A stretch of DNA of 64,000 nucleotides from positions 2,976,001 to 3,040,000 of the forward strand of contig NZ_CP115396.1 in the NCBI RefSeq assembly GCF_027625995.1. Reading direction: 5' to 3'. The notes under the pieces were generated by a model, which was not told the DNA's origin, ran no database searches, and saw only the letters and a program-made list of their open reading frames with translations. The number at the start of each line of letters is the position of its first letter. The stretch's first letter is position 1. Below, piece by piece: positions 4,548-63,335 of the stretch. This DNA comes from Hymenobacter yonginensis (GTDB taxonomy: Bacteria > Bacteroidota > Bacteroidia > Cytophagales > Hymenobacteraceae). The translations under genes were made by a program, and so were the position numbers.

Positions 4548-4581
4548 CTGACTGGGTGGATAATGTGAGGAGGAAAAAAAT

Positions 4582-4648: not shown

Positions 4649-4759
4649 GTCCTGTCCTGTCGCTTTACGTTCCATTAAAGGAAGCTTTTCACCCTCACTA
4701 CTTCAAATCGGGTGCAAAGAACGTAAAATAAGAGAGGCCATAGTACCACCGTCCCAAAC

Positions 4760-4799
4760 AAAAGCCCGATTTGTGGTATAACTCACAAATCGGGCTTTT
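4760..4799. terminator. Terminator of the isoaspartyl peptidase gene
   Basis: A 16-bp stem, AAAAGCCCGATTTGTG (4760-4775) with CACAAATCGGGCTTTT (4784-4799), has an A-run on the left and a T-run on the right. It lies 29 bases beyond the stop of the minus-strand gene and can act in both directions. Confidence 0.85.
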
Positions 4800-4827
4800 T
4801 ATTTGAGCCTGGGCGGCGGGTAGCCGG

Positions 4828-5991
4828 CTACTTGTAAATCTGGATCTGGCTTTTGCCATCGGCCTTGATGAAGCCGCGGTACATACCTTCCGAGTTGAAG
4901 GGCATGGCCAGGTTGCCCTGGCGGTCCAGCGCAATCAGGCCGCCGTCGCCGCCCAGCTTGGCTACTTTATCGATGGTGGCCTGGGCGGCCTGAGCTACGG
5001 GCTGCTGCTGGAACTCCACGCGGGCGGCCACGTCGCGGGCCACCGTAGCCCGGATAAAGTATTCGCCCCAGCCCGTGCACGACACGGCGCACGACTGGTT
5101 GTCGGCGTAGGTGCCGCAGCCGATGATGGGCGCATCGCCGACGCGGCCGTAGCGCTTGTTGGTCATGCCGCCGGTGCTGGTGGCGGCAGCCAGGTTGCCG
5201 TACTGGTCGAGGGCCACGGCGCCGACGGTGCCGTATTTCTTGCCTTCGGTGAAGATCAGGCGGGCATCCTGAGCCGGATCCATGACGGCGCTGGTGGGCT
5301 TGCCGGCTTTGGTTTTCATCTTCATTTTGGCCGGCGCCGCGGCTGGGGCAGCTTTGGTGGGCGCGTTCAGCTGGTCGGGGGTGCCGGCGGCGCGGTCTTC
5401 GGCCAGCGCCTTCTGCAGCTGGTCGTAGCGGGCCTGGGTGAAGAAATAGGCCGGCTCGACGATGGTCAGGCCCTTTTCGCGGGCAAACTGCTCGGCGCCC
5501 GGGCCGGTCATCATCACGTGCTCCGACTTCTCCATCACAGCGCGGGCGGCCGCAATGGGGTTGCGCACCACCGTGACGCCCGCCACGGCTCCGGCGGCCA
5601 GGTTCTGGCCGTTCATGATGGCGGCGTCCATCTCGTTGCGGCCTTCGTGGGTGAAAACGGCACCCTTGCCGGCATTGAACAGCGGCGAGTCTTCCATCAC
5701 GCGCACGGAGGCCTCCACGGCGTCCATTGAGGTGCCGCCGCGCTTGAGCACAGCGTAGCCGGCTTGCAGGGCCTGGTCGAGGGCGGCGTTGTAGGCCTGC
5801 TCCTTCTCAGGCGTCATGTTGGCGCGGGTGATGGTGCCGGCACCGCCATGAATGACGAGCGTGATGCGCGAAGGATCGGGCGCGAGGGTTGCTGCCGGGG
5901 CGGCAGATTGGGCCCGCGCCGCCAGCGGCAGGGTCAGGGGTGCAGCAAGCAGCAGGGCCAGCAGGGCCAGCAGGTGAGTACGAAGCGACAT
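4828..5991 (-). CDS. Isoaspartyl peptidase / L-asparaginase (Ntn hydrolase)
   Basis: This 387-aa exported enzyme has a signal peptide (residues 1-28, LPLAARAQ). It belongs to the plant-type asparaginase family, which removes isoaspartyl residues or hydrolyses asparagine. The precursor cleaves itself before a catalytic threonine, here Thr255 in KKYGTVGAVALDQYG. Supporting motifs are IHGGAGT (about 48-53), NAGKGAVFT (106-114), the downstream TSTGGMTNKRYGRVGD substrate-binding segment, and a C-terminal GGDGGLIALD. The linker before the cleavage site contains an Ala/Pro/Lys/Met-rich insertion (AAPAAAPAKMKMKTKAGKP, about 214-232). This is longer and lower in complexity than is typical, and it would lie in the part that becomes the end of the alpha subunit. 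Confidence 0.93.
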   Translation of the reverse strand: MSLRTHLLALLALLLAAPLTLPLAARAQSAAPAATLAPDPSRITLVIHGGAGTITRANMTPEKEQAYNAALDQALQAGYAVLKRGGTSMDAVEASVRVMEDSPLFNAGKGAVFTHEGRNEMDAAIMNGQNLAAGAVAGVTVVRNPIAAARAVMEKSEHVMMTGPGAEQFAREKGLTIVEPAYFFTQARYDQLQKALAEDRAAGTPDQLNAPTKAAPAAAPAKMKMKTKAGKPTSAVMDPAQDARLIFTEGKKYGTVGAVALDQYGNLAAATSTGGMTNKRYGRVGDAPIIGCGTYADNQSCAVSCTGWGEYFIRATVARDVAARVEFQQQPVAQAAQATIDKVAKLGGDGGLIALDRQGNLAMPFNSEGMYRGFIKADGKSQIQIYK

Positions 5992-43495: not shown

Positions 43496-43569
43496 GGTTG
43501 TGTAGCTCAATTGGATAGAGCATCTGACTACGAATCAGAAGGTTTAAGGTTCGACTCCTTACACGACCA
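43496..43569 (+). tRNA. tRNA-Arg (anticodon ACG)
   Basis: The 74-nt gene folds into a canonical cloverleaf. The acceptor pairs GGTTGTG with CACGACC (one T-G), the D stem pairs GCTC with GAGC, and the anticodon stem pairs TCTGA with TCAGA around CTACGAA. The variable loop is AGGTT, and the T stem pairs TAAGG with CCTTA around TTCGACT. The discriminator is A, and no CCA is encoded. It marks the left edge of a region of different composition. Confidence 0.96.
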
Positions 43570-43582
43570 CATAGCAGCTCTA

Positions 43583-43799: not shown

Positions 43800-44241
43800 T
43801 CTACGAGTCACCGACCGCCGTATTCAGCCGCAATGATTGGTGGTCGAATAGGACGACTGAAAAAAGTACGCCCGCAGCCGAAGCGATAGACCGTTCAAGC
43901 GGTGGGTTTTGCATGAAAGTACACGCCGTGGTGGATGCTCTGGCTAACTGCCTGCACTTGGTGCTAACGCCGGGCAAAGCCGCCGACAGCCCGCAGTTGT
44001 CCGGCCTACTGGCCGCACAGCCCAGCACGGTGGTGGCTGACAAAGCGTACGACACCAATAATATACTGGAAGCCATTACCCTTCGTCAGGCCGCCGCCGT
44101 CATTCCGCCTGAAGTCAACCGGTTGAACCAGCGCGACTACTTTTTGGCCGCCTGAAAGAGGCCTGCGGCTTTGCCACCCGCTACGAGAAAACCGCTCTCT
44201 CCTTTTTAGCTGTGGCCTACCTGCTTGCTGCCCTCGATTAG
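43800..44241 (+). pseudogene. Decayed IS5-family (IS427-group-like) transposase
   Basis: The fragment AEAIDRSSGGFCMKVHAVVDALANCLHLVLTPGKAADSPQL...VVADKAYDTN...AAAVIPPEVNRLNQRDY fits the catalytic core of an IS5-type DDE transposase, with two of the acidic positions. Near 44150 the frame shifts and the text continues as FGRLKEACGFATRYEKTALSFLAVAYLLAALD to a stop at 44239-44241. Compared with intact relatives, the KHLYKERHLVE-type stretch is missing, so there is an internal deletion with a frameshift. No terminal inverted repeats or target duplication were recognised. It is an inactive relic between tRNA-Arg and the GTPase operon. Confidence 0.8.
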
Positions 44242-44320: not shown

Positions 44321-47300
44321 TCACAGCAACCCGTAGTAATGCTGCATCACTGGGCTTGATGGGAAATCAGTTTTCACGGTTTCAAGTAGGGAGCGGATGG
44401 TAATGGTGTTACTGCCACCCTTTGCTAAATTTTCGAGGGCGTGATGCCATTGCGTATCACCGTCATCTGTTTGTTTTAAGAAACCAACTCTACCGCCAGC
44501 CCGCTTCCATACTTGTCGCTCCTCCGGCCCTCTTTCATACAAATCGGCAAGAATGGCGGAGAGTTTACCCCTACTCGGCGCGGAAACTAATAGCTCAGCA
44601 AGCGTATCGGCGGCGGATAAAGCATTGATTACCACAACTTCTGACTGCGGATGCGCTGCAACTGGGGCAACTTGTGCAATAGTGTTTGTACTGATTTGGT
44701 CATCCAGAAGTCGGGCCAGCATCTCGGCAGCGAAAGCGGCGGCGTTAGCGGCGGCAATGGGTTGCCAACCGGCTTGGTCGGAAGCTGTCTTATTCACCAG
44801 CAGGTCGGAAATACCGCGGATGACGATGCCTTTTGCGTGGTGCGAGTGAACGGGAGCTAGGAACCCATACCCTTCCATTTCTACAGCAATGGCTTGACTT
44901 ACACTTTGGGCGATTAGCTTAAAGGTGGCGGAGCGGTTGGAAGCTACTACTTTCTCGCCGGCGGCAATGGGCTTTACTTCGGCTTTGTAATCATTAGCTG
45001 GTCCAAGTCGATGTTGCCACATTTTGTTGTTAGCAATGAATTTAGCCAACTCTGTAAGCTCGTGCGCTCCAGAATGAGTCTTGATACGGGATTTGTACTC
45101 TTCGCCGTCCTTCCCACCCTCGTAGTGCAATATTTCGGATGAGGCGACAACATCACCGAGGTTCACGTCTTTAATGCCGCCTCCTACGCCCACGAAGAAG
45201 GCGTAGCGGGGCTTGAAGTAGGAAAGGGCACGCTCGGTGGCCTGAGCGGCATCTACGTTTCCCGCACCAGACTCGGCCAAGGCAACTGAGAACTTACGCT
45301 CGTTGTGGTTGAAAATCCCTCGCGTGTAGCGGGTACCCGTTTCAGGGTGTCTTGTGGGCTGCGTTTCCGTTAGAATTTGCTGTACAGCGTTAAATTCTAG
45401 ACCGAGCGCGGTCATTATTAGAACTTCGGTTGACATGTTGGAGGGTGAAAGTTGGGTCGGTGGAACCAGGGTTGAAGACTTGTAGTCAGCCCCCCCTGTG
45501 AATAGACTGGTGAACAAGTGTTTCCATCCACCAAGCTGACTTTCGCATTCGGCCAGAGCAAGGTGGAAATGCTTTTGGTACTTAGCCTTGTCCGCTACTT
45601 TCTGCGCAGACTGCGACCATCTTTTACTGTTAATGAGCCGACCGAGAGCTACCGCGGCTCTCGAATCAATAACTGTGAGGTTTGCCACATAGTCAGCTAG
45701 GTAATAGTCGGTCAGGTTGTCGCAGACAGCCTGCACGGCGAGAACGGCCGTAGGGTCGGCGCGGTATGTGTAAAGCAGCCGAGTGGTGAATGTTGGCTTT
45801 TGTACTTCTTGACGTAAGGTGCTTTCTATGAGTTGAGGATGCTGTCCACGCACCAGTTCGACAATGAGAGCATTAGCGGTTGCCAGCAAGAAAGCCGGAC
45901 GAAAGGCAGACGGAAGCAGTGACCACAACGCCGGACGCTGGGGATGGTGTAACACGTTGGCAAACGACGACTTGGCAATAAGAGGCAGCAACGGGAAAGA
46001 ATCAGTCGGGTTTTCGACCAGCAATCCTAAGTAAGCGTCAACCGTTGCAGCGGGGGTAGTCAGACCCGCAGTTAGCCGAGTTGAATGATGTACCGCGCAC
46101 TCCCAGATTTGTCGCCAAGCGCGTTGCGCGAGGTCAAGGCTGGCCAGCAATGAAGGTCTTCTGACGCACGCAACGCCCGCCAATTCCATCAACTGGCTGT
46201 TGTCGGTTGCTAGGGCTAGGTCCAGCAGGTCGTCATCCGCCACGGTCTGGGCAAGCTTCGCCACATGCGGTGATGTATGACTACGGTGAGTGCTTTCTGC
46301 TGCTACCTGGCGTTGTAAGGCCTCGGCTGGAGGCAGAGTTACTGCAGCTACAGCGGCGTGTAATTCCCACCAGCCACGCTTGCGGCTCAGGGCAAGTAGC
46401 GGTTCAGCAACCACTTTGTCAAGTACAGCCGGCACCGTGGCGGCGAGCAGTGAAGCCGTTTCAGGAGCCGAAGCCAATGTGGCGAGCAGCTTTTTACGAG
46501 TGTCGTCGTAGTGCTGCACTCCCAGCCACCATGCGCGGGTTAAGGTTGGCGTGGGCTGCCGCAACAGGGCAGCAAGGGTAGCATCTATCCCCGTTCGCAA
46601 CCACTGCTGATTTTCCGCGGCGTTTGGTCCCGTATCGAGGTCGAAGGTTTCAGTTATGGCGTCATCCGAACTGGTCGCGGCCGTTAACAGATTTTTTACA
46701 CGGGTGGCAACGGCGGCTTCCAATGCTGAGGCGTCGGCAAAGGGCCTCAGTGAAAATTTTCGCAGCATTCTCAGTGGAGGCTCAGGGGTCGTAGCAATGA
46801 CTTTGGCCACGCACTGTAGCACGGCAGCTTTCACGGATACCCCTTTGGATGGTGCGGGCTGAAGCACTGCCACATCACGCGCCAGTGACATCATCTCAGT
46901 CGCGGGTAACTCAGCCAAACGCCCGTAGTTTGTGAAAGCCCGTTCGTACTGCGTGAGGGCACGAAACTGAACTGGCGCAACCTCCAAAACGTCTAGGAAA
47001 ACGCGAAACGGGGTGGCTTCGGCTGCATTCCAGAGCAGATGCTCTTGAGGCGATAAATCACTAACAGGATCTGCGTCAGCAATGGTAATCAGCGACCGGC
47101 CAGACCAACGCCCCGCCACCACTGGCGGTACGCCAATCAAAAGGCTGCTAACGGTCTCAGAAGCCGGCGGACTAAAGCGGGTTGCCCATGTCAGCAACGG
47201 GCGTAGGCTAGGCAGCATACCATTCCACAGACGTACCAGTAATGCCTCCATCTGCTCCGGCTCGGCGATTACTGCCACCGACGGCACCCCACTGAATAGC

Positions 47301-47749
47301 TGCTCGCCAACCTGCTGCAAGCTACCAGATACCGGCGCAAGGGGTAATTCAATTCGCTCGGCTGGCAAAAATGAAACAGGGGCTAGATTGGTACGGTTGG
47401 CAGCAGCGGGTAGCACCGGCAGCAGCAGGGACAGCACTGCCCCTAGGTCGGGCAGACTGGGTACCGCCTCCAATGGCAGTAGCAGTACGTGCGTAAAAAC
47501 CATGCCGGAGCGAGCAGTAGCCACGTCGGGCCATGTGCGGCTAAGCAGGAAATATCCAGCAGTGGTAGCGGCGGACAGATAGGAAGAAATGCCCGGCGGA
47601 ATTACATCGTTGCCAGGGCGGTCAGTAAAGCCAGGCAGAAAGTTCTGTAGCTGCTCACTGAGCGAAGTACTGCTGGCCAGGTAGCCGTGCGAAGTGCCCC
47701 TAACTGCCCCGTAGTAGGCTTGCTGAATAATGACGGGCGCGGCGGGCAT
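44321..47749 (-). CDS. GAP1-like protein fused to nucleoside-phosphorylase domain and C-terminal EAD-like domain
   Basis: This 1142-aa protein is the last gene of the GTPase operon. The N-terminal ~750 residues (IIQQAYYGAVRGTSHGYLASS, then long helical stretches) resemble the GTPase-associated GAP1 N/middle/C regions of double-GTPase conflict systems. From about residue 772 (STEVLIMTALGLEFNAV) to 1035 lies a nucleosidase/phosphorylase (PNP_UDP/MTAN) domain with AESGAGNVDAAQATERAL, FFVGVGGGIKDVNLGDVV, AVEMEGYGFLAPV and the catalytic-Asp motif IRGISDLL. The final ~90 residues (INALSAADTLAELLVSAP to VMQHYYGLL) resemble an effector-associated (EAD1-like) adaptor. Expected role: sensing plus nucleotide-cleaving toxicity under GTPase control, which is inferred. 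Internal ATG 45436 has no ribosome-binding site, so the fusion looks genuine. Confidence 0.72.
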   Translation of the reverse strand: MPAAPVIIQQAYYGAVRGTSHGYLASSTSLSEQLQNFLPGFTDRPGNDVIPPGISSYLSAATTAGYFLLSRTWPDVATARSGMVFTHVLLLPLEAVPSLPDLGAVLSLLLPVLPAAANRTNLAPVSFLPAERIELPLAPVSGSLQQVGEQLFSGVPSVAVIAEPEQMEALLVRLWNGMLPSLRPLLTWATRFSPPASETVSSLLIGVPPVVAGRWSGRSLITIADADPVSDLSPQEHLLWNAAEATPFRVFLDVLEVAPVQFRALTQYERAFTNYGRLAELPATEMMSLARDVAVLQPAPSKGVSVKAAVLQCVAKVIATTPEPPLRMLRKFSLRPFADASALEAAVATRVKNLLTAATSSDDAITETFDLDTGPNAAENQQWLRTGIDATLAALLRQPTPTLTRAWWLGVQHYDDTRKKLLATLASAPETASLLAATVPAVLDKVVAEPLLALSRKRGWWELHAAVAAVTLPPAEALQRQVAAESTHRSHTSPHVAKLAQTVADDDLLDLALATDNSQLMELAGVACVRRPSLLASLDLAQRAWRQIWECAVHHSTRLTAGLTTPAATVDAYLGLLVENPTDSFPLLPLIAKSSFANVLHHPQRPALWSLLPSAFRPAFLLATANALIVELVRGQHPQLIESTLRQEVQKPTFTTRLLYTYRADPTAVLAVQAVCDNLTDYYLADYVANLTVIDSRAAVALGRLINSKRWSQSAQKVADKAKYQKHFHLALAECESQLGGWKHLFTSLFTGGADYKSSTLVPPTQLSPSNMSTEVLIMTALGLEFNAVQQILTETQPTRHPETGTRYTRGIFNHNERKFSVALAESGAGNVDAAQATERALSYFKPRYAFFVGVGGGIKDVNLGDVVASSEILHYEGGKDGEEYKSRIKTHSGAHELTELAKFIANNKMWQHRLGPANDYKAEVKPIAAGEKVVASNRSATFKLIAQSVSQAIAVEMEGYGFLAPVHSHHAKGIVIRGISDLLVNKTASDQAGWQPIAAANAAAFAAEMLARLLDDQISTNTIAQVAPVAAHPQSEVVVINALSAADTLAELLVSAPSRGKLSAILADLYERGPEERQVWKRAGGRVGFLKQTDDGDTQWHHALENLAKGGSNTITIRSLLETVKTDFPSSPVMQHYYGLL

Positions 47750-47751
47750 TT

Positions 47752-48594
47752 TCAGGAAGCTACTAACAGGGTGAGATCGGGGCTGTGCGTGCCATCCGCT
47801 AGCACCACGTAGCCTTTTTGCTCGGGACCATCTACAAAATCTTCGTTGGGCATGTCGGGGTCGAGCGTAGTTTCGGTAGATGAGACACCCAGGATACGTA
47901 GCGCGTTAGGCTCCCAGGTAGCCGCTAGGAAATCGGCTAGGAAAGGCAGGCAGCTACGGAGTTGGTCGGCAGGACGAGGGGCATCGGCTACGTTGGGCAG
48001 GGTATCCCAGCAGGTAAGCGCCACTGTTAGGCGCGGTTGCCGGGCGAGGATAAGTGCCGACTGCCCCCTAACATAGCGCAGCATTTGCAACAGCTCGATG
48101 TAAAAAGCTGGGTCCGACAGCTCGCCGTTAGCCAGTGCCTCTTTAGCTCGGGGCCGCTGCTCGATGAGGTGTGAGCGGGACCGGTTAGTAACATCTTCGA
48201 GAGACTTGACTTCGTCCGGCCGAATAAACAGCAACCACTCGTCGGCCTGCGTAATCAGCTCCTGCCAACGCGGTGAAATAAGGTATTGATTGACAATGCG
48301 CTGCACCTGTTCGCCGGCGTAGTCCGGGAACGTAAGCGCTACTTCCTGTCCCTGAAGGTTGGTCACGGTGAAGCTAATTTCCTCATTGAACCCACTCGGG
48401 GTGTGCCCGGCCGATCGGCCTTCACGCAGACGTTCGATGATGTGGTTGATGGCCGTTAGGTCAGTGGGTGGGGCAGCCATTTGCAGTGCGTACTGCGGTG
48501 CCCGCCGCCTATCGGTGAGGCGCAGGTAGAGCTGGCCGACGTAGTGCGTTTTGCCAACGTGAGGACCGCCCAGAATCAGTAGTTGATGGGACAT
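47752..48594 (-). CDS. Double-GTPase-type GTPase 1 (DO-GTPase1-like)
   Basis: This 280-aa protein has a P-loop at the very N-terminus (LLILGGPHVGKTHYVGQLYL, GxxxxGKT at residues 9-16). The G3-like motif LTFPDYAGEQVQRI follows near 90, and a G4-like TCWDTLPN near 185. This matches the first GTPase of the double-GTPase conflict systems (with GAP1 and an all-helical partner). It starts 5 bases after the stop of the second GTPase gene and stops 2 bases before the GAP1-like start. It probably forms a switch with that GTPase. Confidence 0.75.
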   Translation of the reverse strand: MSHQLLILGGPHVGKTHYVGQLYLRLTDRRRAPQYALQMAAPPTDLTAINHIIERLREGRSAGHTPSGFNEEISFTVTNLQGQEVALTFPDYAGEQVQRIVNQYLISPRWQELITQADEWLLFIRPDEVKSLEDVTNRSRSHLIEQRPRAKEALANGELSDPAFYIELLQMLRYVRGQSALILARQPRLTVALTCWDTLPNVADAPRPADQLRSCLPFLADFLAATWEPNALRILGVSSTETTLDPDMPNEDFVDGPEQKGYVVLADGTHSPDLTLLVAS

Positions 48595-48599
48595 CGATT

Positions 48600-49622
48600 T
48601 CAGCGGATTACTTGGCGACGTAGCAGAAAAAGGTCTTGTTCAGTAGTGGACGGCACTGGCACCGGCGGCGTGGTGCCTAGTTCGCGGCAGTGCGTATCAA
48701 GCAGCCACGCCACACTGTCCAGCACCTGCGGGTGCCAGCGGTCGGCCCCGCTCAGTTCCACGCTAACTTCGAACTCGCGGTAATGGCGCGGGGCGGCGTG
48801 TTGCAGGTGCTGACTGATATCGGTCAGAAACTGCGGACGCTCATTAGGCACATCGGCTTTGGTCCACACTAGTCCTAGCGGACGGGAACCGAGCCGGTGC
48901 GTGAGCCGGTCAGCCAACTCCTTGATTTCCCCGCGGGCCTGACCACGCTGGGTTCCAGTAAGACGTTCACGGTCGGCAAATAGCAGGAAGGCGCGGCTGT
49001 GCTGATAAACCCAGCGGGCACCCGCAGCAGTATCGGAGTCGTGCTTGATAATCCAGTCGGTAAACCACTCCCCGGGCGCATCGGTGAAGAGGACATCGAG
49101 TACGGCCGCCGGCTCATCTTCTGACCGCAAGGCCAAGTGCAGAATACCCGGTACGCGGCCCTCATCTCTACCGGTGCTTCGGCTGGTGTGCGGTGGAAAC
49201 TGAATATCTGTTCGGCTTTCCTTGAAGGTAAGGTAGCTGGCAATAGCCTCCCAACCGGGCAGTGTATAAGAGCCCGCAAACCTGTAGCCCGGAATGCCTT
49301 GCCCCTGCCGAAGCAGCGCGTAGAGAAGGGCTAGAAACGTGGTTTTGCCAGCATTGGCCGCCCCTACTAGCCCAATGCATAGCACCCGTGAGCGGGCCGT
49401 AAGCAGGCGCATATCCTGCGCCCCTAGCGGGCTGCCCGTCCAACTCACCCGAAAGCCGGCCGGCAGCTCCGTAACCTCGCTCGGCCCTAACGCGGCGGCT
49501 TTACCAGATTCGGCTTGGTTGGCTGCTTTCTTTCGAAACTTGCACTTGGTTCCGTCGCCGCCACCTTCTTCAGCGCAACCCGACTCCTCGGGGTGGCAAT
49601 AGGTTTGGGTGCACGTTATCAT
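48600..49622 (-). CDS. Double-GTPase-type GTPase 2 with N-terminal Cys-rich segment (DO-GTPase2-like)
   Basis: This 340-aa protein has a P-loop in LCIGLVGAANAGKTTFLALLYAL (GxxxxGKT at 87-94). It also has FTDAPGEWF (G3 DxPG near 175) and VWTKADVP (G4 near 255). The N-terminus contains four cysteines and a histidine (C4, C9, H10, C16, C27) that could bind a metal. It overlaps the preceding gene by 4 bases (ATGA at 49619-49622), indicating translational coupling. It fits the second GTPase of double-GTPase systems. No GAP arginine can be identified by eye, so regulation by the GAP1-like protein is inference. Confidence 0.75.
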   Translation of the reverse strand: MITCTQTYCHPEESGCAEEGGGDGTKCKFRKKAANQAESGKAAALGPSEVTELPAGFRVSWTGSPLGAQDMRLLTARSRVLCIGLVGAANAGKTTFLALLYALLRQGQGIPGYRFAGSYTLPGWEAIASYLTFKESRTDIQFPPHTSRSTGRDEGRVPGILHLALRSEDEPAAVLDVLFTDAPGEWFTDWIIKHDSDTAAGARWVYQHSRAFLLFADRERLTGTQRGQARGEIKELADRLTHRLGSRPLGLVWTKADVPNERPQFLTDISQHLQHAAPRHYREFEVSVELSGADRWHPQVLDSVAWLLDTHCRELGTTPPVPVPSTTEQDLFLLRRQVIR

Positions 49623-50905
49623 AAGCGGGAAGCCAGCAGGCGGTCGGTGAGTAAATCGTGAAGCAGAATGACAGCTAGTTGGTCAGGGGCGGCAGGATGG
49701 TCAGAGCGCAAGCCGGTGCGGTCTTGTAACTGTTCAGGGGCGGCGTGCTGGTGCAGTACTTGAGTAAGAAACGCCGTGAGAGTGGTGCGCTCGGCACAGG
49801 CAGTCATTACCAATGGTAATGACTGACGCAATGCCGCGCGGTTTTCATCGACGGCAAAGACCGCAACCAAATCGGCCAGCGTTTGGGGTTCGGGTTTGCC
49901 ACCCACCACAGCGCGGTAGGTATCAGTTAGCAGAAAATCTACGCTCACCGGAATGGTATCGGGTACCAGCTTCGCCAATTCTACGGCCATCACGGCGGGT
50001 AATAGGGCAGCATCCAGGTCACGGTAGCTTCGGCGGAGCGTAGTGGAGTACAGCGTTTCCTTCCACCACAGTAACTGGCTACGCCGCTCCACCGCCTTCA
50101 GCGACTGATGCGATTTGGCAAGTGTGTCGGTTATGGCTTTGCTGACAGAGCCGAAGAACTTGTTGACTTCTGCCTCTAAGCTTACAGTAGAAAGCGACTG
50201 GCTGAAACTTTGCAGAGCGGTTTCAACGGCTGACGTAATGCCAGCGGACGCTTTTATGCCAAAGTTCTCATACCAATCAGCTGAAGGTTCCTGAGTATTT
50301 CTGTAAGCGGTTTCTATCTCTAGGGACTGCACTGAGTTGGTCATTTCAACTCGCAACTTGTCATTGTCCACCTTGGCACTCCCAAATTTAAATCCGCTCA
50401 GTTTAAACGGCTCAATCTGAGGTGTCAACGCTGTCTGCTCTAATGACCACTCCGCAACAGCATGCACCTCCAACTCGCTGCCGAACTTCTCTAGCAGCAG
50501 TTCGATAGCAGGTTGCTCCGAGCCGAAGTCCGCGAAATGGTAATATCCGCTGGCGGTGTAGTAGAGGACTTTTAAAGCCGTCATGTCTTCCGCTGCTCGC
50601 TCGTACAGGGCGCTCAACATAACTCCCCGCACTGTTTGACGGGGCATGGCTCCCCTGAACTTGCCGCCAGCTCCCGGCCAGTGTTTTTTTATTACCTCAT
50701 ACGTAGCAACCAGTAAGGGACTGTCCTCCGCCACGTGGGCATCGAGAGCTACTAGCGTGTAGCAGCGTATCTGGCTGGGAGTTTTCTTGAAAAGTTTGAC
50801 CAAGTCCCCAACAGCTTTTAGAAGTTGTTCGCGGCGCGTATCATCGTCTCCGATGCCGAAGAAGTCGTTTTCGTGCCAGAGGTCAAAAAGGGGATTGACA
50901 GACAT
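49619..50905 (-). CDS. GTPase-associated all-helical protein (GASH-like)
   Basis: This 428-aa soluble protein is predicted to be almost entirely alpha-helical. It begins MSVNPLFDLWHENDFFGIGDDDTRREQLLK and includes a helical TALKVLYYTASGYYHFAD stretch, an amphipathic VETALQSFSQSLSTVSLEAEVNKFFGSVSKAI segment, and a C-terminal LAVILLHDLLTDRLLAS. It occupies the position of the helical partner in GTPase-centred conflict operons (GASH), and this assignment rests mostly on context. The start ATG 50905 is preferred; the longer open frame would add 33 residues from the spacer. It is the first gene of the four-gene operon. Confidence 0.65.
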   Translation of the reverse strand: MSVNPLFDLWHENDFFGIGDDDTRREQLLKAVGDLVKLFKKTPSQIRCYTLVALDAHVAEDSPLLVATYEVIKKHWPGAGGKFRGAMPRQTVRGVMLSALYERAAEDMTALKVLYYTASGYYHFADFGSEQPAIELLLEKFGSELEVHAVAEWSLEQTALTPQIEPFKLSGFKFGSAKVDNDKLRVEMTNSVQSLEIETAYRNTQEPSADWYENFGIKASAGITSAVETALQSFSQSLSTVSLEAEVNKFFGSVSKAITDTLAKSHQSLKAVERRSQLLWWKETLYSTTLRRSYRDLDAALLPAVMAVELAKLVPDTIPVSVDFLLTDTYRAVVGGKPEPQTLADLVAVFAVDENRAALRQSLPLVMTACAERTTLTAFLTQVLHQHAAPEQLQDRTGLRSDHPAAPDQLAVILLHDLLTDRLLASRL

Positions 50906-51250: not shown

Positions 51251-54200
51251 TCAGGCACTACCAATGACCCGCAGTGGTACCCCAGCCAGTTCATGCACGA
51301 AGTTTTGCGTAACTCCAAGCAGCTTCAACAGTTCCGGCCCCACGTCCCCCTGTTTGATAGAGGGCTGTACAATGATGAAGGAAAATTCGACTGGCAGCTG
51401 CCGCTTAGCCAGCCGTCGTAGCGTTTCCAATTCCTTCACCGTTCCCTTTTCCAATCGGTCGCGTGTCATCCCCTTCTCCGTCTTGGGCTTGCGTCGAAGC
51501 AAGTGTAACAGAAGTGCATCCGGACGGCGGTGCTTCCAGTGGACTGACCGTTGCGTCTGTCCGCATACTTCATACAAGTTCTTTACCGCGTTTCCGATCT
51601 TACCCTTACTGGCGTACTTCAGATGGTATAGCTCCACGGCAATCCGGTCAGGGTGTAGCTTGAGTGTTACTATGTCGGCCGCTTCACCCGCGCTGTCATC
51701 ATCATAAATAATGTCGTAGTCACCCTGCTGAAGCCTCTGGATCACCCGATACTGGATAGAATCCGTTACCGGAAGTACACCCTGTGACTCGGCACTGAGA
51801 TCAACACCCGTCCAATCCCAATATTCGATTCCCGCCGCCGGGAATAACCCAATTGAGTGCTTCGGGGCCAAGTGGTCGTTGCCTCGCACTGAGGAGCCAT
51901 CGGCAAACCACACCGTTGGCGGCAAGCGCTGTAGGAACTGTACTCCTTCCTCCTCCCGCCGCCCAAATAAGGCCTGTACGGCTGGCCCACCAGTCTGCAT
52001 GATGGCATAGTGCGGGTATCTGGCCCTGGCCTCCCCTGCTTCTTGTAAGGTTACGCGAAATGCCGCCTGCTGGGTATCACTAACCAAAAGGAAATCGATT
52101 GTAGTAGCACTGAATACCCCAGTTAGCTCCAGTGTTGCGTTTGACAGATCAACTACTTCGTCGCCCAACCTGAACTTGAAGTACACCTCGTCTTGAAGGT
52201 ACAAGTCTTCGTGCCAGTCAATCCACACTGGGTCACTCTCCGGAAACTCGCTCACATAAGTCGGCACCAACGTCTCTTTCAGAAACTGGTTGGGGTCGAT
52301 GTTCGGATCTAGCAGCTGCTTGCCAACTTTGGAGCACCATTTGGTGAACACGCTCAAGTCGTTCTCCCGCTTCAGCCAGATACGCCCCTTGTAAGAAGCC
52401 CCCAGGTTGCGCTGCTTGCCGTCTTCGTAGCCCATTCCCATCACGAAGGCTTTTTCACCTTTCTGCTGCTCCAGTGCGCTAACTGCCTCCTCCAGGTCAC
52501 GCCCCACCATCATCCTAAATCGGACGTCTTTACCCACGTGGTTGCGTAGCCCCACGTTTTGCAGACTGATGCGGTGCAGGCCATCAAACGTTTTGAACAC
52601 ATCCACCCCCTTGATGATCTGTGCATTGTTGTCCAAAATAGCGTTAGCCAGCGGCTCGTAGAGCGACGAGTTGTCGGAACTATGGATAAAGAGTAGCTTG
52701 AGTCGTGCCTCCCAGAATACTACGATAATCCGCCAGGTCAACTGGTACACCTCTTTCGAGTCCAACCAATCTACGCCGTCTTGGTGGGCTGTCAGGATAA
52801 GCAACAACTGCTTGTCGCTGTTGAGGTCGTCAAACTGGTAGAATGCCTTATCGTAGTCGGGTAGTCCTTGTCGGAAGTTACGTGGGTTCCATGTATCAGC
52901 GGTACGATACACTACCGTACTCAGCTTAATTTTGATGTTGTTAAGGGGCAGCTTGGCCTCGTTGAGCCGGGAGAAACCCGCCAGTAGTCGCTTGAAATCT
53001 ACCTCTTCTTGAATCCGGGTCTGGCCCATGTTGGCCAGCAGCTTGTTCCAGTCTGTGTCGGCTGCATACAACTCATCCAACTCGTCACCCACTTGCGGAT
53101 CGGCGATGTTGGCAATGAAGCACGCATTACCCAGTTGCTCGTCGCGCTTGGTGCGCGTGAAACGCCCAGCCAGTTGGAGAGTGATGGGCAGGCTTTTACG
53201 AATATCGTGGAAGGCGGCAATCTTCAACTCCGGCAGGTCGAAGCCTTCACCCAGCATATCTACGCACACAATGATGCGAGCTTGGCGTGTAGTAATCTGA
53301 CGTAATATTTCCTTAGCCCCGGTCACACCCGAGTATAACAACACGGGGGTCAGGTCATTATGCGGTGCGTAGAGTTGATACACCTGTTTGGCCCGCTCCT
53401 TTGTGGCGCAGCGGGCCATCAATATGTGGTTGTAGCCAGCTGTCAAGTCCTCGCGTAATCGGGCCATCGCCGCATCAGCAATGGCTTGGTCGGCCTTCTC
53501 GGGCTGAAACACACTGACCGGTTTGAACTCGATGGTTTTGTAGTACCCCTGCCGTTGGGCCTCGCTTAGGGGGAAGTTGAAAAGAAGGTTGCCTTCAAGC
53601 CGCTGCCCATCGTTGCGAAACGGGGTGGCTGTGAACTGTAGCACCTTGTGGCTGTCAAAATGGTCTTTCACATATTGCCAAGAGGCGGCCTTTACGTGGT
53701 GTGCCTCGTCGATGAACACATGAGAGCAAACGTCAGCCATATGTTGCAACTGAGTTGGCTCCAGTGTCTGCAGAATTGACATCGTAGCTACCAGAACGTT
53801 GCTTTGAGCTACGAACCGCTCGAAATCAGCGCCATCAGCAAATGACTGACGCATCACGCCAACTGCTGGGTACCCAGCCCCCTGACCGACAATGCCAAAC
53901 TCCTTGAGTAAGCCCAGTGTGATGAACTTCTCGGCAATCTGAGTGCGCAACGCATCGGATGGTACGACGACGAGTAGCTTGGCGCACTGTTTCGCGACAA
54001 GCACTGCCAGCATAGTCTCAGTTTTTCCTGTGCCAGTAGGTAGCACTACGAGTCCCGCATCGGAAGGTAACGTCAGATGCCCTAGCACAGAGTAAATGGC
54101 ACCAAGTTGTGGCTGGCGTAAACCGGGACTCTCAGTAGCCTGGTCTTCCTCAACGAAAAAGAAGTTGTTGCACCACGAGCTTACGATGTCAGCGGGGGTG

Positions 54201-54499
54201 GTAGCAGCAGATTCTTCGGCCTTCAGCCACCGCTTAAACTCAACTTTCTCTAACTGCCACGCCGCAAGCGTAGGTTTATGTTTAGTCTGCACCACATGTG
54301 TCTCACCAACCGGAACATCGGCCGGATCTGCGGTTAGGTAGAGTGACATGTGTGTGCTCTGCAGGCGTAGGCCGTTTAGGTGAGGGGTTGCGGTTATGTC
54401 AACCAGTTTATTTCCTCGCCGCCGCAGCCGGGTAACGGTATTTTTCTGGCCTGGTACCGAATAGACCTCCGTATGCCAATCTGGTAGTAATAACTCCAT
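51251..54499 (-). CDS. DEAH-box helicase with probable C-terminal PD-(D/E)xK nuclease
   Basis: This 1082-aa protein has a superfamily 2 helicase core: VLPTGTGKTETMLA (Walker A, 156-160), IDEAHHVKA (DEAH, 264-267), LQFTATPFRNDG (motif III-like), GVTGAKEILRQI and CVDMLGEGFDLPELKIAAFHD, and QLAGRFTRTKRD (motif VI). A long middle region (about 480-900) is unassigned. The C-terminal part has ADIVTLKLHPDRIAVELYHLKYA, in which D942, E956 and K961 fit a PD-(D/E)xK nuclease centre. It could be a restriction or defence helicase-nuclease acting on DNA or RNA. ATG 54499 is preferred over 54532. It lies 345 bases upstream of the GTPase operon on the same strand and may belong to the same defence island. 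Confidence 0.8.
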   Translation of the reverse strand: MELLLPDWHTEVYSVPGQKNTVTRLRRRGNKLVDITATPHLNGLRLQSTHMSLYLTADPADVPVGETHVVQTKHKPTLAAWQLEKVEFKRWLKAEESAATTPADIVSSWCNNFFFVEEDQATESPGLRQPQLGAIYSVLGHLTLPSDAGLVVLPTGTGKTETMLAVLVAKQCAKLLVVVPSDALRTQIAEKFITLGLLKEFGIVGQGAGYPAVGVMRQSFADGADFERFVAQSNVLVATMSILQTLEPTQLQHMADVCSHVFIDEAHHVKAASWQYVKDHFDSHKVLQFTATPFRNDGQRLEGNLLFNFPLSEAQRQGYYKTIEFKPVSVFQPEKADQAIADAAMARLREDLTAGYNHILMARCATKERAKQVYQLYAPHNDLTPVLLYSGVTGAKEILRQITTRQARIIVCVDMLGEGFDLPELKIAAFHDIRKSLPITLQLAGRFTRTKRDEQLGNACFIANIADPQVGDELDELYAADTDWNKLLANMGQTRIQEEVDFKRLLAGFSRLNEAKLPLNNIKIKLSTVVYRTADTWNPRNFRQGLPDYDKAFYQFDDLNSDKQLLLILTAHQDGVDWLDSKEVYQLTWRIIVVFWEARLKLLFIHSSDNSSLYEPLANAILDNNAQIIKGVDVFKTFDGLHRISLQNVGLRNHVGKDVRFRMMVGRDLEEAVSALEQQKGEKAFVMGMGYEDGKQRNLGASYKGRIWLKRENDLSVFTKWCSKVGKQLLDPNIDPNQFLKETLVPTYVSEFPESDPVWIDWHEDLYLQDEVYFKFRLGDEVVDLSNATLELTGVFSATTIDFLLVSDTQQAAFRVTLQEAGEARARYPHYAIMQTGGPAVQALFGRREEEGVQFLQRLPPTVWFADGSSVRGNDHLAPKHSIGLFPAAGIEYWDWTGVDLSAESQGVLPVTDSIQYRVIQRLQQGDYDIIYDDDSAGEAADIVTLKLHPDRIAVELYHLKYASKGKIGNAVKNLYEVCGQTQRSVHWKHRRPDALLLHLLRRKPKTEKGMTRDRLEKGTVKELETLRRLAKRQLPVEFSFIIVQPSIKQGDVGPELLKLLGVTQNFVHELAGVPLRVIGSA

Positions 54500-54613
54500 T
54501 GATGATGTGGTTACGCGTATAATACCGCACAAGCTACTAAAGAATGGTGTAGTCAGCAGCTTCTAACCTGTACCCTTTCCGACTGGTAAAAACACCGAGC
54601 CTGCTGTTTTGCG

Positions 54614-55142: not shown

Positions 55143-59546
<4,404 letters not shown>

Positions 59547-59573
59547 GGAAACTCCTTTTCCTGAACCCAACCC

Positions 59574-60746
59574 ATGCATAAGATTGCAACCCTGGTGCTG
59601 CTGCTGAGCCTGACCGTAGCCAGCTGCACCAACAAGAACGAGAAAGAAACGGCCGAAACTACGGAGACACCCGCGTCGGCAGAAGAAGAGGAAGCAGAGG
59701 AAGCCTCGGACCTGGTTTCCCTTTCGCCCGCCGAGCAGCAAGCGGCAGGTATCCAGACCGGACGCATCCAGAGCCGCCCGATGGGAGCCGGGTTGGCGGT
59801 AACGGGTACGCTGGACGTGCCCCCGGAGAGTGCCGTATCCATTACCGCCCCATTGGGAGGCTTCGTAGAGCGCACGGAGCTGCTGCAGGGGGCCCGTGTG
59901 CGCAAAGGAGAGGTGCTAGCCACCATTCGCAACCCGGAGTTTGTGACCCTGCAGCAGGACTACCTGGAAACCCGCGCTCGGCTGGCATACGCCCGTACGG
60001 AGCTTGCCCGCCAGAAAGAGCTCTACGAGCAGGAGGTCGCCCCGCAAAAAAACTACCAGCGCGCCCAGGCTGACTACAATGCCCTGCAAGTGCAAACCAA
60101 CGCCCAGGCTGCCCGATTGCGGCTGGCGGGCCTCCCCGTGGGCGGCAAGATTGTCACCACGGCCAGCTTACGGGCTCCCCGGGCGGGCTTTGTGCGCGCC
60201 GTGAACGTGACGGTCGGCCAGGCAGTGACGGCCACCGATGCCTTATTTGAAATCGTGGACCCAGAACACCTGCACGTCGAACTCACGGTCTTCGAGCGGG
60301 ATGTGGCCCGGGTACAAAAGGGGCAGCTGATCCGCTTTACCCTGGCCAGCGACTCTACCGGCTCCCACCGGGAGCGTACGGCTCACGTGTACCTGGTCGG
60401 CAAAGCTATTGGCGAGGACCGGACCGTGCGGGTGCACGGCCACCTCGACCAGGAAAACGACCCAGCGTTGCTGCCAGGCCTCTACGTGCGCGCTATGATT
60501 GAAACCGGCCGCAGCGACGCGCCGGTGCTCCCCGATGCGGCTCTGGTGCGCTTTGAGGGCAAGAATTACGCCTACGCGGTGGAAGCGCCGGGCCGCTACC
60601 GGATGGTACCCGTTACGCTAGGTCGTAGCGAGGACAACTTCACGGAAGTCACCTTGCCTGAAGCCGTGCCGGCCACGACGACGTTCGTGACGACGGGAGC
60701 CTACTCGTTGCTGGCCAAGATGAAAAACGCCGAAGAGGAGGAATAA
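59574..60746 (+). CDS. Periplasmic adaptor (membrane fusion) lipoprotein of the RND system
   Basis: This 390-aa protein has a lipoprotein signal (KIATLVLLLSLTVASC, lipidated Cys17), then a Glu-rich linker. The membrane-fusion core carries AVTGTLDVPPESAVSITAPLGG (barrel-sandwich), then LQGARVRKGEVLATIRNPEF, a coiled-coil hairpin (QQDYLETRARLAYARTELA to KNYQRAQADYNAL), and VRAVNVTVGQAVTATDALFEIVDPEHLHVEL. It bridges the inner-membrane pump to the outer channel. The start is 27 bases after the CzcA-TolC stop, and the next gene begins 3 bases after its own stop, so all are one operon. Confidence 0.9.
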   Translation: MHKIATLVLLLSLTVASCTNKNEKETAETTETPASAEEEEAEEASDLVSLSPAEQQAAGIQTGRIQSRPMGAGLAVTGTLDVPPESAVSITAPLGGFVERTELLQGARVRKGEVLATIRNPEFVTLQQDYLETRARLAYARTELARQKELYEQEVAPQKNYQRAQADYNALQVQTNAQAARLRLAGLPVGGKIVTTASLRAPRAGFVRAVNVTVGQAVTATDALFEIVDPEHLHVELTVFERDVARVQKGQLIRFTLASDSTGSHRERTAHVYLVGKAIGEDRTVRVHGHLDQENDPALLPGLYVRAMIETGRSDAPVLPDAALVRFEGKNYAYAVEAPGRYRMVPVTLGRSEDNFTEVTLPEAVPATTTFVTTGAYSLLAKMKNAEEEE

Positions 60747-60749
60747 ACT

Positions 60750-61172
60750 ATGGCTCACCCCCAAGAAGACACCCTCATCGCCCGGCAGATTACGCCGACG
60801 CCCGTGCGCCTGCTCGTACTGGATGTGCTGCAGCACCACCCGGCCGCGCTCAGCCTGGCGGATGTGGAACTCCTGCTCGGGTACGCGGACCGTATTACCG
60901 TGCACCGAACGCTGAAAATCTTTACCGAGAAGGGACTCGTGCACCGCATCGAGGACGGCAGCGGAGCCGTCAAGTTTGCCCTGTGCGAGCCGGGCTGCAC
61001 CCCGGAGCACCACCAGGACTTCCATGTGCACTTCTTCTGTACCCGCTGCCGGGAAACCTCCTGCTTGTCCACGGTGGCGGTACCCGTCATTGCCTTGCCG
61101 GGAGCGTACCAGGTACAGGAAACCAGTCTGGTGATGAAGGGGCTGTGCGAGAACTGCGCCAGCGCCGGCTGA
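60750..61172 (+). CDS. Fur-family metal-dependent regulator
   Basis: This 140-aa protein is of normal length for the family (Fur/Zur). An N-terminal winged helix (ITPTPVRLLVLDVLQHHP, then SLADVELLLG and RITVHRTLKIFTEKGLVHRI) is followed by a metal-binding dimerisation domain with HHQDFHVHFFCTRC and GLCENC. The two CX2C pairs (CTRC, CENC) bind structural zinc, and the His residues fit the regulatory site. It sits within the metal efflux operon and probably represses it in response to metal. A perfect palindrome follows its stop. Which metal it senses is not evident from sequence. Confidence 0.88.
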   Translation: MAHPQEDTLIARQITPTPVRLLVLDVLQHHPAALSLADVELLLGYADRITVHRTLKIFTEKGLVHRIEDGSGAVKFALCEPGCTPEHHQDFHVHFFCTRCRETSCLSTVAVPVIALPGAYQVQETSLVMKGLCENCASAG

Positions 61173-61176
61173 AACA

Positions 61177-61193
61177 ATGCAATAGCATTGCAT
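61177..61193. promoter_or_regulatory. Putative Fur-family operator, 17-bp perfect palindrome
   Basis: ATGCAATAGCATTGCAT is a perfect inverted repeat (7-bp arms around AGC). It is 4 bases after the Fur stop and about 55 bases upstream of the P-type ATPase start. Its form resembles Zur/Fur-type boxes, and the adjacent regulator makes this the strongest candidate operator in the window. Confidence 0.6.
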
Positions 61194-61247
61194 CGTCCAG
61201 CCCCCGAGGTTTGCCTCTTCTAGTTGATCTACCTCATTCCTTAGCTC

Positions 61248-63335
61248 ATGCCTGACCCTTCTCTAGATAAAACCAACGAGGAGCTGAACACCGCCAAGCA
61301 GGTGCAGCTCGAAAATGTAGGCGCGCTGACCCGCGACCAACTCTCCCCCGACGCCGCGACAGAGCCACAGGGCCACGACGTACCCGGCCATGACCACGCG
61401 CCAGCGGCGGATACCACACCCGATGCCCAGGCCGGCCACACCCATGAAGAAGGTGACGACCATGACCATGAAAATGCGGGAGCCAGCCCTTACCTGTGGC
61501 CGGGCGTGAGTCTGGCGCTGCTGCTGGCCGGTATCGCGCTGGACTACTTCGACGTTTCCTTCTTTAGCGGCACCGTACGCCTGCTGTGGTACGGGGTGGC
61601 CTTTTTGCTGGTCGGCTGGAAAGTCATCAAGGCGGCGGTGCTAAGTATTCCATCCGGGAACGTGTTCAACGAGTTTCTACTCATGAGCTTGGCCACGCTC
61701 GGGGCGTTTGCCATCGGCGAGTACCCGGAAGGAGTCGCCGTGATGCTGTTCTATACCGTGGGCGAACTGTTCCAGGACGCGGCCGTTAACCGGGCCAAGC
61801 GTAGCATTCGAGCCCTTCTAGAGATCCAAGCCACGGAAGTCACAGTGTTGCGCGGAGGCCGTAGTCTGGTGCTGGATCCTAAGCAGGTACAGCTGGGCGA
61901 TATCATTGAGGTGAAGCCCGGGGAGAAAGTAGCCCTCGACGGGACCCTGCTAGTTGGACCCGCCAGCTTCAACACGGCCGCTCTTACCGGCGAGTCAGCT
62001 CCTCAAACCAAGCAAACTGGGGACATGGTACTGGCCGGCATGATCAACCAAGAGTCACTGGCGCAGGTGCAGGTAACTGCGACGTACCAGGACACGAAGC
62101 TGGCCAAAATCCTGTCGATGGTGCAGGATGCGGTCGGGCGTAAGGCGAAAACCCAGCTGTTCATCACCCGCTTTGCGAAGATCTACACACCCATCGTCGT
62201 GCTACTGGCCGCGCTGCTTATTGTCGTGCCCTATTTTCTGGTGGACGACTATGTGTTTCGAGACTGGCTCTACCGGGCCCTCGTCTTTCTGGTCATCTCT
62301 TGCCCCTGCGCCCTAGTCGTGAGCATTCCATTGGGCTACTTTGGTGGCATCGGCGCGGCCTCCCGGGCCGGCATCCTGCTTAAGGGCTCCAACTTCCTGG
62401 ACGTGCTGCGTGAAATCGACACCGTGGTGATGGACAAGACCGGTACGCTGACCCAAGGCGTGTTTGCCGTGCAGCAGGTGCAGCCCGCCGCTGGGTTTGA
62501 CGCTGAGCAACTGTTGCGCCTGGTCGGAACCCTGGAAACGAAATCGACTCACCCCATTGCCAAAGCCGTAGTACAGCATGTCGGTAACGCAGTGGCAGGC
62601 GTCATGGTAGAGAACGTCGAGGAAATAGCCGGCCACGGGTTGCGTGGCCGGATCGATAGCAAGGACGTCCTGGCCGGCAACACCAAGCTGTTGACCAAGT
62701 TTCAGGTTTCCTACCCCCCCGAAGTAGATCAGGTAGTAGATAGTATTGTGGTTGCGGCTGTAAATGGTCAGTACGCCGGCTACCTGACTGTGGCCGACGC
62801 ACCTAAGGCTGACGCAAAGCAAACCGTGCGGGAGCTGCGGGCCGATGGCATCACGAAGATCGTCATGCTCTCGGGTGACAAAGACAGCATTACTCAGCGG
62901 GTAGCCAAGGAGCTCGGTATTGACGAAGCCCACGGTGGGCTGTTACCGGAAGACAAAGCCCGTTATGTACAGCAATATCTCACGGAAGGCTGCAAGTTGG
63001 CGTTTGTGGGTGATGGGGTGAACGATGCGCCGGTCGTCGCCTTGGCCGACGTAGGCATTGCCATGGGTGGTCTGGGGTCGGACGCGACGATTGAAACAGC
63101 CGATGTAGTCATTCAGACGGACCACCCTAGCAAGATTGCCACGGCTCGCCGGATTGCTCGCGCCACGCACTCAGTAGTGTGGCAGAACATCTGGCTCGCG
63201 TTCGGGGTGAAAGCCATCGTCCTGGCCCTCGGGGCGGGTGGCGTGGCCACGATGTGGGAAGCCGTGTTTGCCGACGTCGGAGTGGCTCTACTCGCGATTC
63301 TAAACGCTTGGCGCATTCAACGGATGAAGTTTTGA
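61248..63335 (+). CDS. Zn/Cd/Co-type P-type ATPase with His-rich N-terminus
   Basis: This 695-aa P1B-type ATPase has the heavy-metal CPC motif SCPCALVVSIPLGYFGG in helix 6, the phosphorylation site VMDKTGTLTQG, the actuator loop ALTGESAPQTKQ and VGDGVNDAPVVALADVG. It lacks the N-terminal GMxCxxC metal domain; instead residues 40-75 are rich in His and Asp (HDVPGHDHAP, AGHTHEEGDDHDHE). This suggests Zn, Cd or Co rather than Cu, although specificity is inferred. It is downstream of the Fur-family regulator and its likely operator. The start ATG 61248 is supported by the conserved N-terminus. Confidence 0.92.
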   Translation: MPDPSLDKTNEELNTAKQVQLENVGALTRDQLSPDAATEPQGHDVPGHDHAPAADTTPDAQAGHTHEEGDDHDHENAGASPYLWPGVSLALLLAGIALDYFDVSFFSGTVRLLWYGVAFLLVGWKVIKAAVLSIPSGNVFNEFLLMSLATLGAFAIGEYPEGVAVMLFYTVGELFQDAAVNRAKRSIRALLEIQATEVTVLRGGRSLVLDPKQVQLGDIIEVKPGEKVALDGTLLVGPASFNTAALTGESAPQTKQTGDMVLAGMINQESLAQVQVTATYQDTKLAKILSMVQDAVGRKAKTQLFITRFAKIYTPIVVLLAALLIVVPYFLVDDYVFRDWLYRALVFLVISCPCALVVSIPLGYFGGIGAASRAGILLKGSNFLDVLREIDTVVMDKTGTLTQGVFAVQQVQPAAGFDAEQLLRLVGTLETKSTHPIAKAVVQHVGNAVAGVMVENVEEIAGHGLRGRIDSKDVLAGNTKLLTKFQVSYPPEVDQVVDSIVVAAVNGQYAGYLTVADAPKADAKQTVRELRADGITKIVMLSGDKDSITQRVAKELGIDEAHGGLLPEDKARYVQQYLTEGCKLAFVGDGVNDAPVVALADVGIAMGGLGSDATIETADVVIQTDHPSKIATARRIARATHSVVWQNIWLAFGVKAIVLALGAGGVATMWEAVFADVGVALLAILNAWRIQRMKF

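Follow-up and report, generated by a model that had tools for sequence, protein, structure and literature searches.

A class of conflict systems termed GTPase-centric subsystem 1 was predicted by Kaur, Burroughs, Iyer and Aravind in 2020 (PMC7159879). According to the available part of that text, the systems of the GAP1-N1 type are defined by GAP1, the protein GASH and two DO-GTPases, one of them with a zinc ribbon, and PNP is on the list of their effectors, which are either fused to GAP1 or coupled to it via EAD1 domains present on both GAP1 and the effector. The operon dealt with here corresponds to the core of that predicted subsystem and occupies positions 44321–50905 of a 64,000-nucleotide stretch of Hymenobacter yonginensis DNA (GCF_027625995.1, NZ_CP115396.1, positions 2,976,001–3,040,000), hereafter called the window, the numbering of which is used throughout. 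Judged from its sequence, it is a member of the already predicted class, and it represents the published alternative in which the effector—a PNP domain—is fused to GAP1. We consider it, with moderate confidence, to be a mobile defence operon of the GAP1-N1 type that is gated by GTPases and most likely acts by abortive infection, a reading backed by the family membership of its proteins, by a constant core combined with a varying effector, by intact PNP residues and by the mobile settings of its relatives. Four reading frames on the minus strand, all of them open in the window, are transcribed in the order GASH, DO-GTPase2, DO-GTPase1 and GAP1, with the following features (E-values given after the Pfam accession):

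49619–50905, minus strand: GASH gene, encoding the GTPase-associated system all-helical protein (PF19994, 2.8e-43, 149.1 bits against a cut-off of 27; homologues in 25 other distinct loci)
48600–49622, minus strand: DO-GTPase2 gene, an N-terminal zinc-ribbon-like motif of four cysteines followed by a P-loop GTPase domain (PF19993, 9.2e-58)
47752–48594, minus strand: DO-GTPase1 gene, a P-loop GTPase without the zinc ribbon (PF19975, 3.8e-66)
44321–47749, minus strand: GAP1-PNP-EAD1 fusion gene, 1142 amino acids with no internal stop (Pfam matches; an equal 1142-residue fusion in Hymenobacter sp. CRA2, locus L001)
47423–47728, minus strand: GAP1-N1 domain, residues 8–109 of the fusion (PF20012, 8.4e-21, 74.6 bits against 27)
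45437–45541, minus strand: fusion junction, residues 737–771, followed by the internal Met codon 772 (a fast-evolving linker, from the alignment and substitution rates)
44717–45424, minus strand: PNP/nucleosidase effector domain, residues 776–1011 (PF01048, 2.1e-19)
44339–44578, minus strand: EAD1 domain, residues 1058–1137 (PF19955, 1.4e-6, 29.1 bits against a cut-off of 24.2)

The genes are tightly linked, GASH and DO-GTPase2 overlapping by 4 bases (the former ends at 49619, the latter begins at 49622), DO-GTPase2 and DO-GTPase1 being separated by 5 bases and DO-GTPase1 and GAP1 by 2 bases, the spacings that the original prediction, made from the DNA letters, had described. Its family guesses were right as well: the all-helical protein is GASH, the two distinct P-loop enzymes are DO-GTPase2 and DO-GTPase1, the profile searches it had proposed against the DO-GTPase, GAP1, GASH and EAD families were all positive, and the layout it had recognised agrees in its core parts with the GAP1-N1 type in the available text of Kaur et al. 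(PMC7159879). The description "GAP1-like effector protein", however, proved incomplete, the full chain consisting of GAP1-N1, PNP and EAD1 and the PNP effector having gone unmentioned. The matches of GASH, both GTPases and GAP1-N1 lie far over the Pfam cut-offs, that of EAD1 more narrowly. The reading frame of GASH is open from 51004, and the ATG at 50905 aligns with the methionine of six homologues (M1 invariant in alignment A5).

The comparison was based on 26 distinct loci including the window (27 entries, L039 being the contig of L006 again; codes with L denote loci and those with G genomes), the others having been drawn by a match of DO-GTPase1 or GAP1-N1. The order GASH, DO-GTPase2, DO-GTPase1 and GAP1 was found again in the 25 other distinct loci, originating from Bacteroidota, Proteobacteria, Deinococcus and a Leptospira phage record, and all four core parts are present in 26/26 loci, some of them decayed, interrupted or cut. 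Because of the way the loci were chosen, it is the co-occurrence of the remaining core parts that is informative. The four zinc-ribbon cysteines of DO-GTPase2, its Walker A pair G92-K93 and the residues D181, G184 and E185 are each conserved in 26/26 loci, and in DO-GTPase1 the Walker A residues G9, K15 and T16 are found in 24/24 and G94-E95 in 25/25 of the aligned sequences. The conserved glutamate of the Walker B region is present in both GTPases—E185 of DO-GTPase2 and E95 of DO-GTPase1—each in a GE pair after an aspartate. Concerning GAP1-M (PF20014), the window protein gave no match at E-values up to 1, and four of four related genomes gave none over the cut-off and none at their operons; the miss is not taken as decisive, because relatives with a clear GAP1-N1 miss PF20014, too, and the model may fail to reach proteins of the N1 type.

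The effector varies among the otherwise alike operons, covering four kinds of enzyme and one EAD1-only protein. The fused GAP1-PNP is confined to two of the 26 loci, the window and CRA2, the latter having the same four genes with 70% identity over the fusion, in surroundings that differ from those of the window. Twelve loci (L002, L003, L004, L005, L006, L021, L023, L024, L031, L036, L037 and L038) exhibit the split form, i.e. GAP1 with its own terminal EAD1 and a separate downstream gene for PNP-EAD1, and in two more the PNP is upstream of the core (L020, with GAAD below the cut-off, and L043, with a partial PNP match and EAD1 over the cut-off). The remaining effectors are caspase-EAD1 in five loci (L032, L033, L041, L042 and L044), EAD1-trypsin in one (L022), metallophosphoesterase-GAAD in three (L035, L045 and L046) and an EAD1-only protein, just under the Pfam cut-off, in one (L034).

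In the alignment, the fused protein of both the window and CRA2 is devoid of GAP1's own EAD1, a short linker leading into the PNP start at Met772, and the junction residues 737–771 replace the EAD1 of GAP1, the stop and the start present in relatives. Its presence in two genomes makes a sequencing error an unlikely cause of the fusion. The core tree—concatenated core proteins of 21 of the 26 loci, midpoint-rooted and without the decayed, partial or distant loci L006, L032, L038, L045 and L046—places the fused pair as the sister of five split-PNP loci, with the split locus L037 next outside and an ultrafast bootstrap of 100 at both nodes. Parsimony makes the fusion a derived state. As a Rosetta-stone argument it also hints at a physical association of GAP1 with PNP, in agreement with the published idea of EAD coupling.

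In the midpoint-rooted EAD1 tree, the EAD1 that was kept groups at a support of 100 with the PNP-EAD1 copies from the close relatives, apart from their GAP1-EAD1 copies (alignment A1 comprises 39 of 43 matches; the four dropped are two duplicates of L006 under L039 and the copies on GAP1 in L043 and L034). Its mean identity is 43% to 12 PNP-EAD1 copies, 41% to 4 caspase-EAD1 copies and 32% to 18 GAP1-EAD1 copies, and on these comparisons it is to be regarded as a descendant of the effector, not of GAP1. Between the window and CRA2 the ratio of non-synonymous to synonymous substitution rates (dN/dS) is 0.14 (0.065–0.276) for EAD1, 0.084 for PNP, 0.15 for GASH and 0.095 and 0.073 for the two GTPases (the latter over codons 1–170 only), and 0.57 and 0.62 for the two linkers of the fusion, the junction linker being computed over residues 737–773; the ratios are rough, since dS approaches saturation, with 1.06–1.31 in general and 0.76 and 0.95 for the linkers. 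EAD1 is under purifying selection.

The chain encoded by the operon carries a single EAD1 instead of a pair on GAP1 and effector, and the genome of CRA2 contains one over the cut-off. There, the fused copy is the sole match of a home-made profile built from alignment A1, and PF19955 gives it 40.7 bits, three other matches reaching 13.4–13.7 bits, below the cut-off of 24.2; matches at the loose PF19955 threshold, none over the cut-off, are also seen in 5/14 control genomes. Two EAD1 copies at the operon were detected in 5/5 split-PNP genomes tested (G002, G003, G004, G104 and G483) when both profiles were combined. PF19955 misses one copy each in G002, G003 and G104, the second copy there needing the home-made profile, G483 shows both with either profile, and G031 has two by PF19955, the home-made profile missing a divergent copy on the trypsin protein. 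Both profiles are thus incomplete, and the single EAD1 of CRA2 rests on two imperfect searches that agree. Since EAD1 is conserved despite the fusion of PNP, and CRA2 has no other copy over the cut-off, the domain seems to serve some purpose beyond the capture of a separate effector. A tentative proposal, which we hold to be a minority prospect, is that EAD1 is a self-assembly domain and not a mere tether, which would predict GTPase-triggered EAD1 polymers activating the nucleosidase by crowding, as a bacterial counterpart of GTPase-run death-fold signalling; alternatively, EAD1 possibly binds a partner that is not an EAD1.

As far as the effector itself is concerned, residues E785, M958, E959 and D982 align with the active-site residues of solved structures of MTA/SAH nucleosidases, and all four are invariant in 15/15 aligned PNPs of the system (alignment A2, 15 of 18 used, the L039 duplicate and two partial pieces of L043 being left out). 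We take their counterparts to be catalytic in the MTA/SAH nucleosidase. The PNP part also matches the PADLOC model for an effector of the PN-superfamily (1.1e-20). The seven PNP records that scored best in the plasmid collection (rows H25–H31) exhibit 42–49% identity to the window PNP. Five of them were opened (L078–L082) and four of these scanned: the PNP is on an AAA protein in L081, on an NB-ARC-TPR protein in L079 and in L078 on a protein whose AAA_16 match falls just short of the cut-off, and L082 has PNP with no other Pfam match. The identity to the PNP-SAVED protein of L083, the gene of which neighbours a CBASS cyclase, is 30%.

Four further residues—Tyr101, Lys105, Arg113 and Lys158 in the alignment numbering—occur together in 14/15 PNPs of the system (L020 is without Lys158) as well as in the five opened plasmid PNPs and L083, and are missing, except for one arginine, from the MTA/SAH nucleosidases of the relatives L091 and L092. 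A conceivable role of these residues is to bind a triphosphate. Since L106 also carries three of the four, the signature extends beyond proteins in known immune settings. The available parts of a review table (PMC10952713) and a meeting report (PMC9966839) tie PF01048/PNP effectors to the degradation of (d)ATP, a like remark being found in PMC10197012, and by analogy with these effectors the window PNP probably cleaves ATP or dATP.

Turning to the genomic setting, two features lie to the left of the operon:

43496–43570, plus strand: tRNA-Arg(ACG), with the non-syntenic region starting at its 3' end
43913–44152, plus strand: transposase relic between the tRNA and the operon (DDE_Tnp_1, 1.5e-9 over 73 amino acids)

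Both the tRNA-Arg and the transposase relic, the latter named as an IS5 relic, had been pointed out originally, together with a shift in composition, which was borne out: the GC content of the operon is 0.562, below the minimum of 0.598 (mean 0.632) in 79 overlapping stretches of equal length elsewhere in the window, and that of third codon positions is 0.56–0.64 in the operon genes versus 0.77 and 0.83 in two flanking genes. The horizontal origin proposed on those grounds is strengthened by the relatives. Some part of the left flank or the tRNA-Arg is matched by all 200 family genomes searched, and 10 of the 12 best flank matches break off at query base 971 or 972, which corresponds to window position 43570–43571, the end of the tRNA, the other two reaching 975 and 1024. 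Four relatives (L074–L077) are 83–97% identical up to the same point and continue with other DNA, none of their stretches of 14.9–17.0 kb matching the window to the right of 43571. All four share downstream a protein of 337 amino acids resembling FAD/NAD(P) reductases (named by eye; in L077 inside a longer reading frame), and L076 has about 4.3 kb of extra genes between the tRNA-Arg and this shared block, with a different small cluster at 1379–4835, which suggests that the tRNA-Arg site is an integration hotspot. The window does not rejoin the arrangement of the relatives by position 64000, its right edge lying beyond, no second copy of the tRNA end as a right att site is present in the window, and no integrase was recognised by eye among the listed reading frames of 42000–64000, where no profile search was made. 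The break at the tRNA end may also reflect a rearrangement rather than an insertion.

GAP1-N1 was found in 8/200 genomes of the family, CRA2 being one of the eight, and in 10/390 genomes of the order, one match being weak and partial, a distribution at odds with the conserved housekeeping locus that the original prediction had named as its refutation. This scarcity, together with the similarity ending at the tRNA, points to a mobile accessory, and the operon is, on these sequence comparisons, horizontally acquired. Relatives of DO-GTPase1 are present on 23 of 72,556 plasmid records (nine of the 23 opened), 17 of them typed conjugative (with the base rate of the collection uncompared), and on one of 50,697 phage records, the IMG/VR scan having yielded none confirmed. 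The phage record, from a Leptospira phage (L031, KF114878.1, 5793–12378), holds all five genes of a GAP1-N1 system in which PNP-EAD1 is separate, adjoining an integrase gene. On the plasmid pVSAL840, typed conjugative (L046, NC_011311.1, 5266–14807), the GTPase system directly adjoins rdrA/rdrB of RADAR, and further defence neighbours are GmrSD in L003 and HsdR in L005. The GASH of L046 is short and adjoins a gene for an IS30-family transposase.

The proposed mechanism is as follows. A signal derived from the invader would be sensed by GASH and/or by the large helical part of GAP1, and sensing would switch both GTPases into an active pair with GTP bound, which in turn would change the shape or oligomeric state of GAP1. 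The PNP domain would then cleave a cellular nucleotide at its N-glycosidic bond, the substrate probably being ATP or dATP as reported for the PNPs of CBASS and Detocs, so that the infected cell would stop or die before phage release. In most of the PNP relatives, GAP1 and PNP are separate, have one EAD1 each and presumably meet by EAD1-EAD1 contact; in the window, the covalent fusion would replace that contact, and the remaining EAD1 would probably gather several GAP1-PNP chains.

Several observations weigh against this reading. No phage, GTPase or nucleosidase assay of the GTPase-centric systems was found in the open-licence literature, including the available part of the follow-up PMC8195603, and the EAD1-EAD1 contact is itself deduced from sequences. 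PADLOC 2.0.0 gave nothing for GASH and DO-GTPase1 and a chance-level match to AriA for DO-GTPase2. The best NCBIfam matches of the window PNP, all under the cut-offs, are models of MTA/SAH nucleosidase and futalosine hydrolase, and the protein has no Cap17-like_N (SLOG, PF18178) domain, which is present in L084; the latter shares only the arginine of K105/R113/K158. In the PNP tree, with ultrafast bootstrap values of 77–87 at the deep nodes, two CBASS PNPs fall apart from the window PNP, and a single clade uniting them is unsupported. It should be noted that the "house" rows of that tree were picked by PF01048 match alone, that 3/19 such loci passed the score and length filter—L091 and L092, MTA/SAH nucleosidases over the NCBIfam cut-offs, and L106, which is not and groups with a PNP of the system—and that the row of L078 spans two PNP copies of one protein. 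Finally, the DO-GTPase1 of CRA2 is broken by a frameshift relative to the window, be it real decay or an assembly error, so that the comparison partner may be decaying.

An alternative that we deem unlikely, albeit the likeliest of three, sees in PNP a signalling enzyme that frees a base for a second messenger or removes an inhibitory nucleotide, the killing being left to another protein. Kaur et al. (PMC7159879), in the available text, suggest the generation of second messengers for PNP domains of sister systems and describe several instances of nucleotide effectors partnered with SLATT pores, but in the window there is no further gene between GAP1 and the transposase relic and tRNA, no co-directed partner was seen in CRA2 (reading frames of at least 150 amino acids inspected by eye, with no SLATT profile search), and the same place is elsewhere occupied by caspase and trypsin domains.

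Somewhat less probable still is that the operon defends a mobile element against a rival element, through plasmid or prophage competition or superinfection exclusion, and not the cell against phages. The conjugative share of the plasmid records (17/23, with the reservation on the base rate given above), the Leptospira phage, which has all five genes of the split form next to an integrase, and the non-syntenic position of the window copy at a tRNA would fit such a role; the window copy, however, adjoins DNA syntenic with contigs of 4.5–4.9 Mb in relatives and is thus probably chromosomal, and L001 is on a 629-kb contig where inspection by eye of the operon's neighbourhood revealed no plasmid or phage genes. 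A non-defence regulatory operon of stress or development with the GTPases as switches, with which the lack of functional tests of GTPase-centric systems in the open-licence literature and the statement in the available text of Kaur et al. (PMC7159879) that GAP1-N1 systems show no link with multicellularity would agree, is very improbable in view of the occurrence of GAP1-N1 in only 8/200 family genomes, the changing effectors, the mobile settings and the decayed copies L001 and L006.

Concerning the remainder of the window, no Bacteroidota-type promoter TAnnTTTG was found in the 345 bases upstream of GASH. Upstream of the operon, the minus strand encodes at 51251–54532 a superfamily 2 helicase of 1093 amino acids (ResIII 8.3e-21, Helicase_C), relatives of which were found by tblastn on 176 plasmid records with a best identity of 44%, its C-terminal part containing an ELYHLKYA stretch that may, by eye, be a nuclease core. 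It was rejected as a fifth component of the operon, being absent beside the operon in L001 and not recognised by eye in 10 further loci, and may be an independent defence gene within this region. An efflux cluster on the plus strand at 55143–63335, comprising a reading frame of 1467 amino acids for an AcrB-family pump that also has an outer-membrane efflux (OEP) domain, an RND periplasmic adaptor (59574–60746) and a P-type ATPase, is situated on the non-syntenic side of the tRNA-Arg and may be further cargo. tRNA-Thr(CGT) was predicted twice, at 20641–20733 and 21397–21489, 93 bases each with starts 756 bases apart, possibly a local duplication or false predictions.

For GTPase-centred systems, predicted in 2020 and with no bench test found in the open-licence literature, the operon of H. 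yonginensis offers a compact test set of four genes with the effector on board. The split and fused forms make up a natural experiment on the role of EAD1, to recruit or to polymerise: should the fused form still need EAD1, the domain must do more than recruit the effector, by assembling or by binding something else. Cleavage of ATP by the PNP would place the GTPase switch among the other triggers of such enzymes reported in the available part of PMC10952713, i.e. CBASS, Detocs, NLR-like and others.

Among the systems to which the operon may be compared, the PNPs of AAA/STAND-like and NB-ARC-TPR proteins from cyanobacteria and Streptomyces are the closest outside the system in the plasmid collection, among the matches opened, with 18/18 tabulated residues equal to those of the window PNP in L078, L081 and L082 and 17/18 in L079. 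An ATPase-type switch is on the PNP chain itself in L078, L079 and L081, none having been found in L082, and, unlike the window, the scanned proteins have no GTPases, GASH or GAP1. The PNP effectors of CBASS (Cap17) and Detocs have the PF01048 fold and the catalytic residues in common with the window PNP, and the CBASS-linked PNP-SAVED protein L083 shares 17/18 tabulated residues with it, whereas the window protein is without Cap17-like_N and its trigger would be the GTPase/GAP1 core. The system of Kaur et al. (PMC7159879), as given in the available text, agrees with the window in GASH, the two DO-GTPases, GAP1-N1, the variable effector and EAD1. A GAP1-PNP-EAD1 chain is not described in that text and may stand in the figures or source data; with it, the operon of H. 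yonginensis unites in one polypeptide the two published modes of coupling, direct fusion and EAD1.

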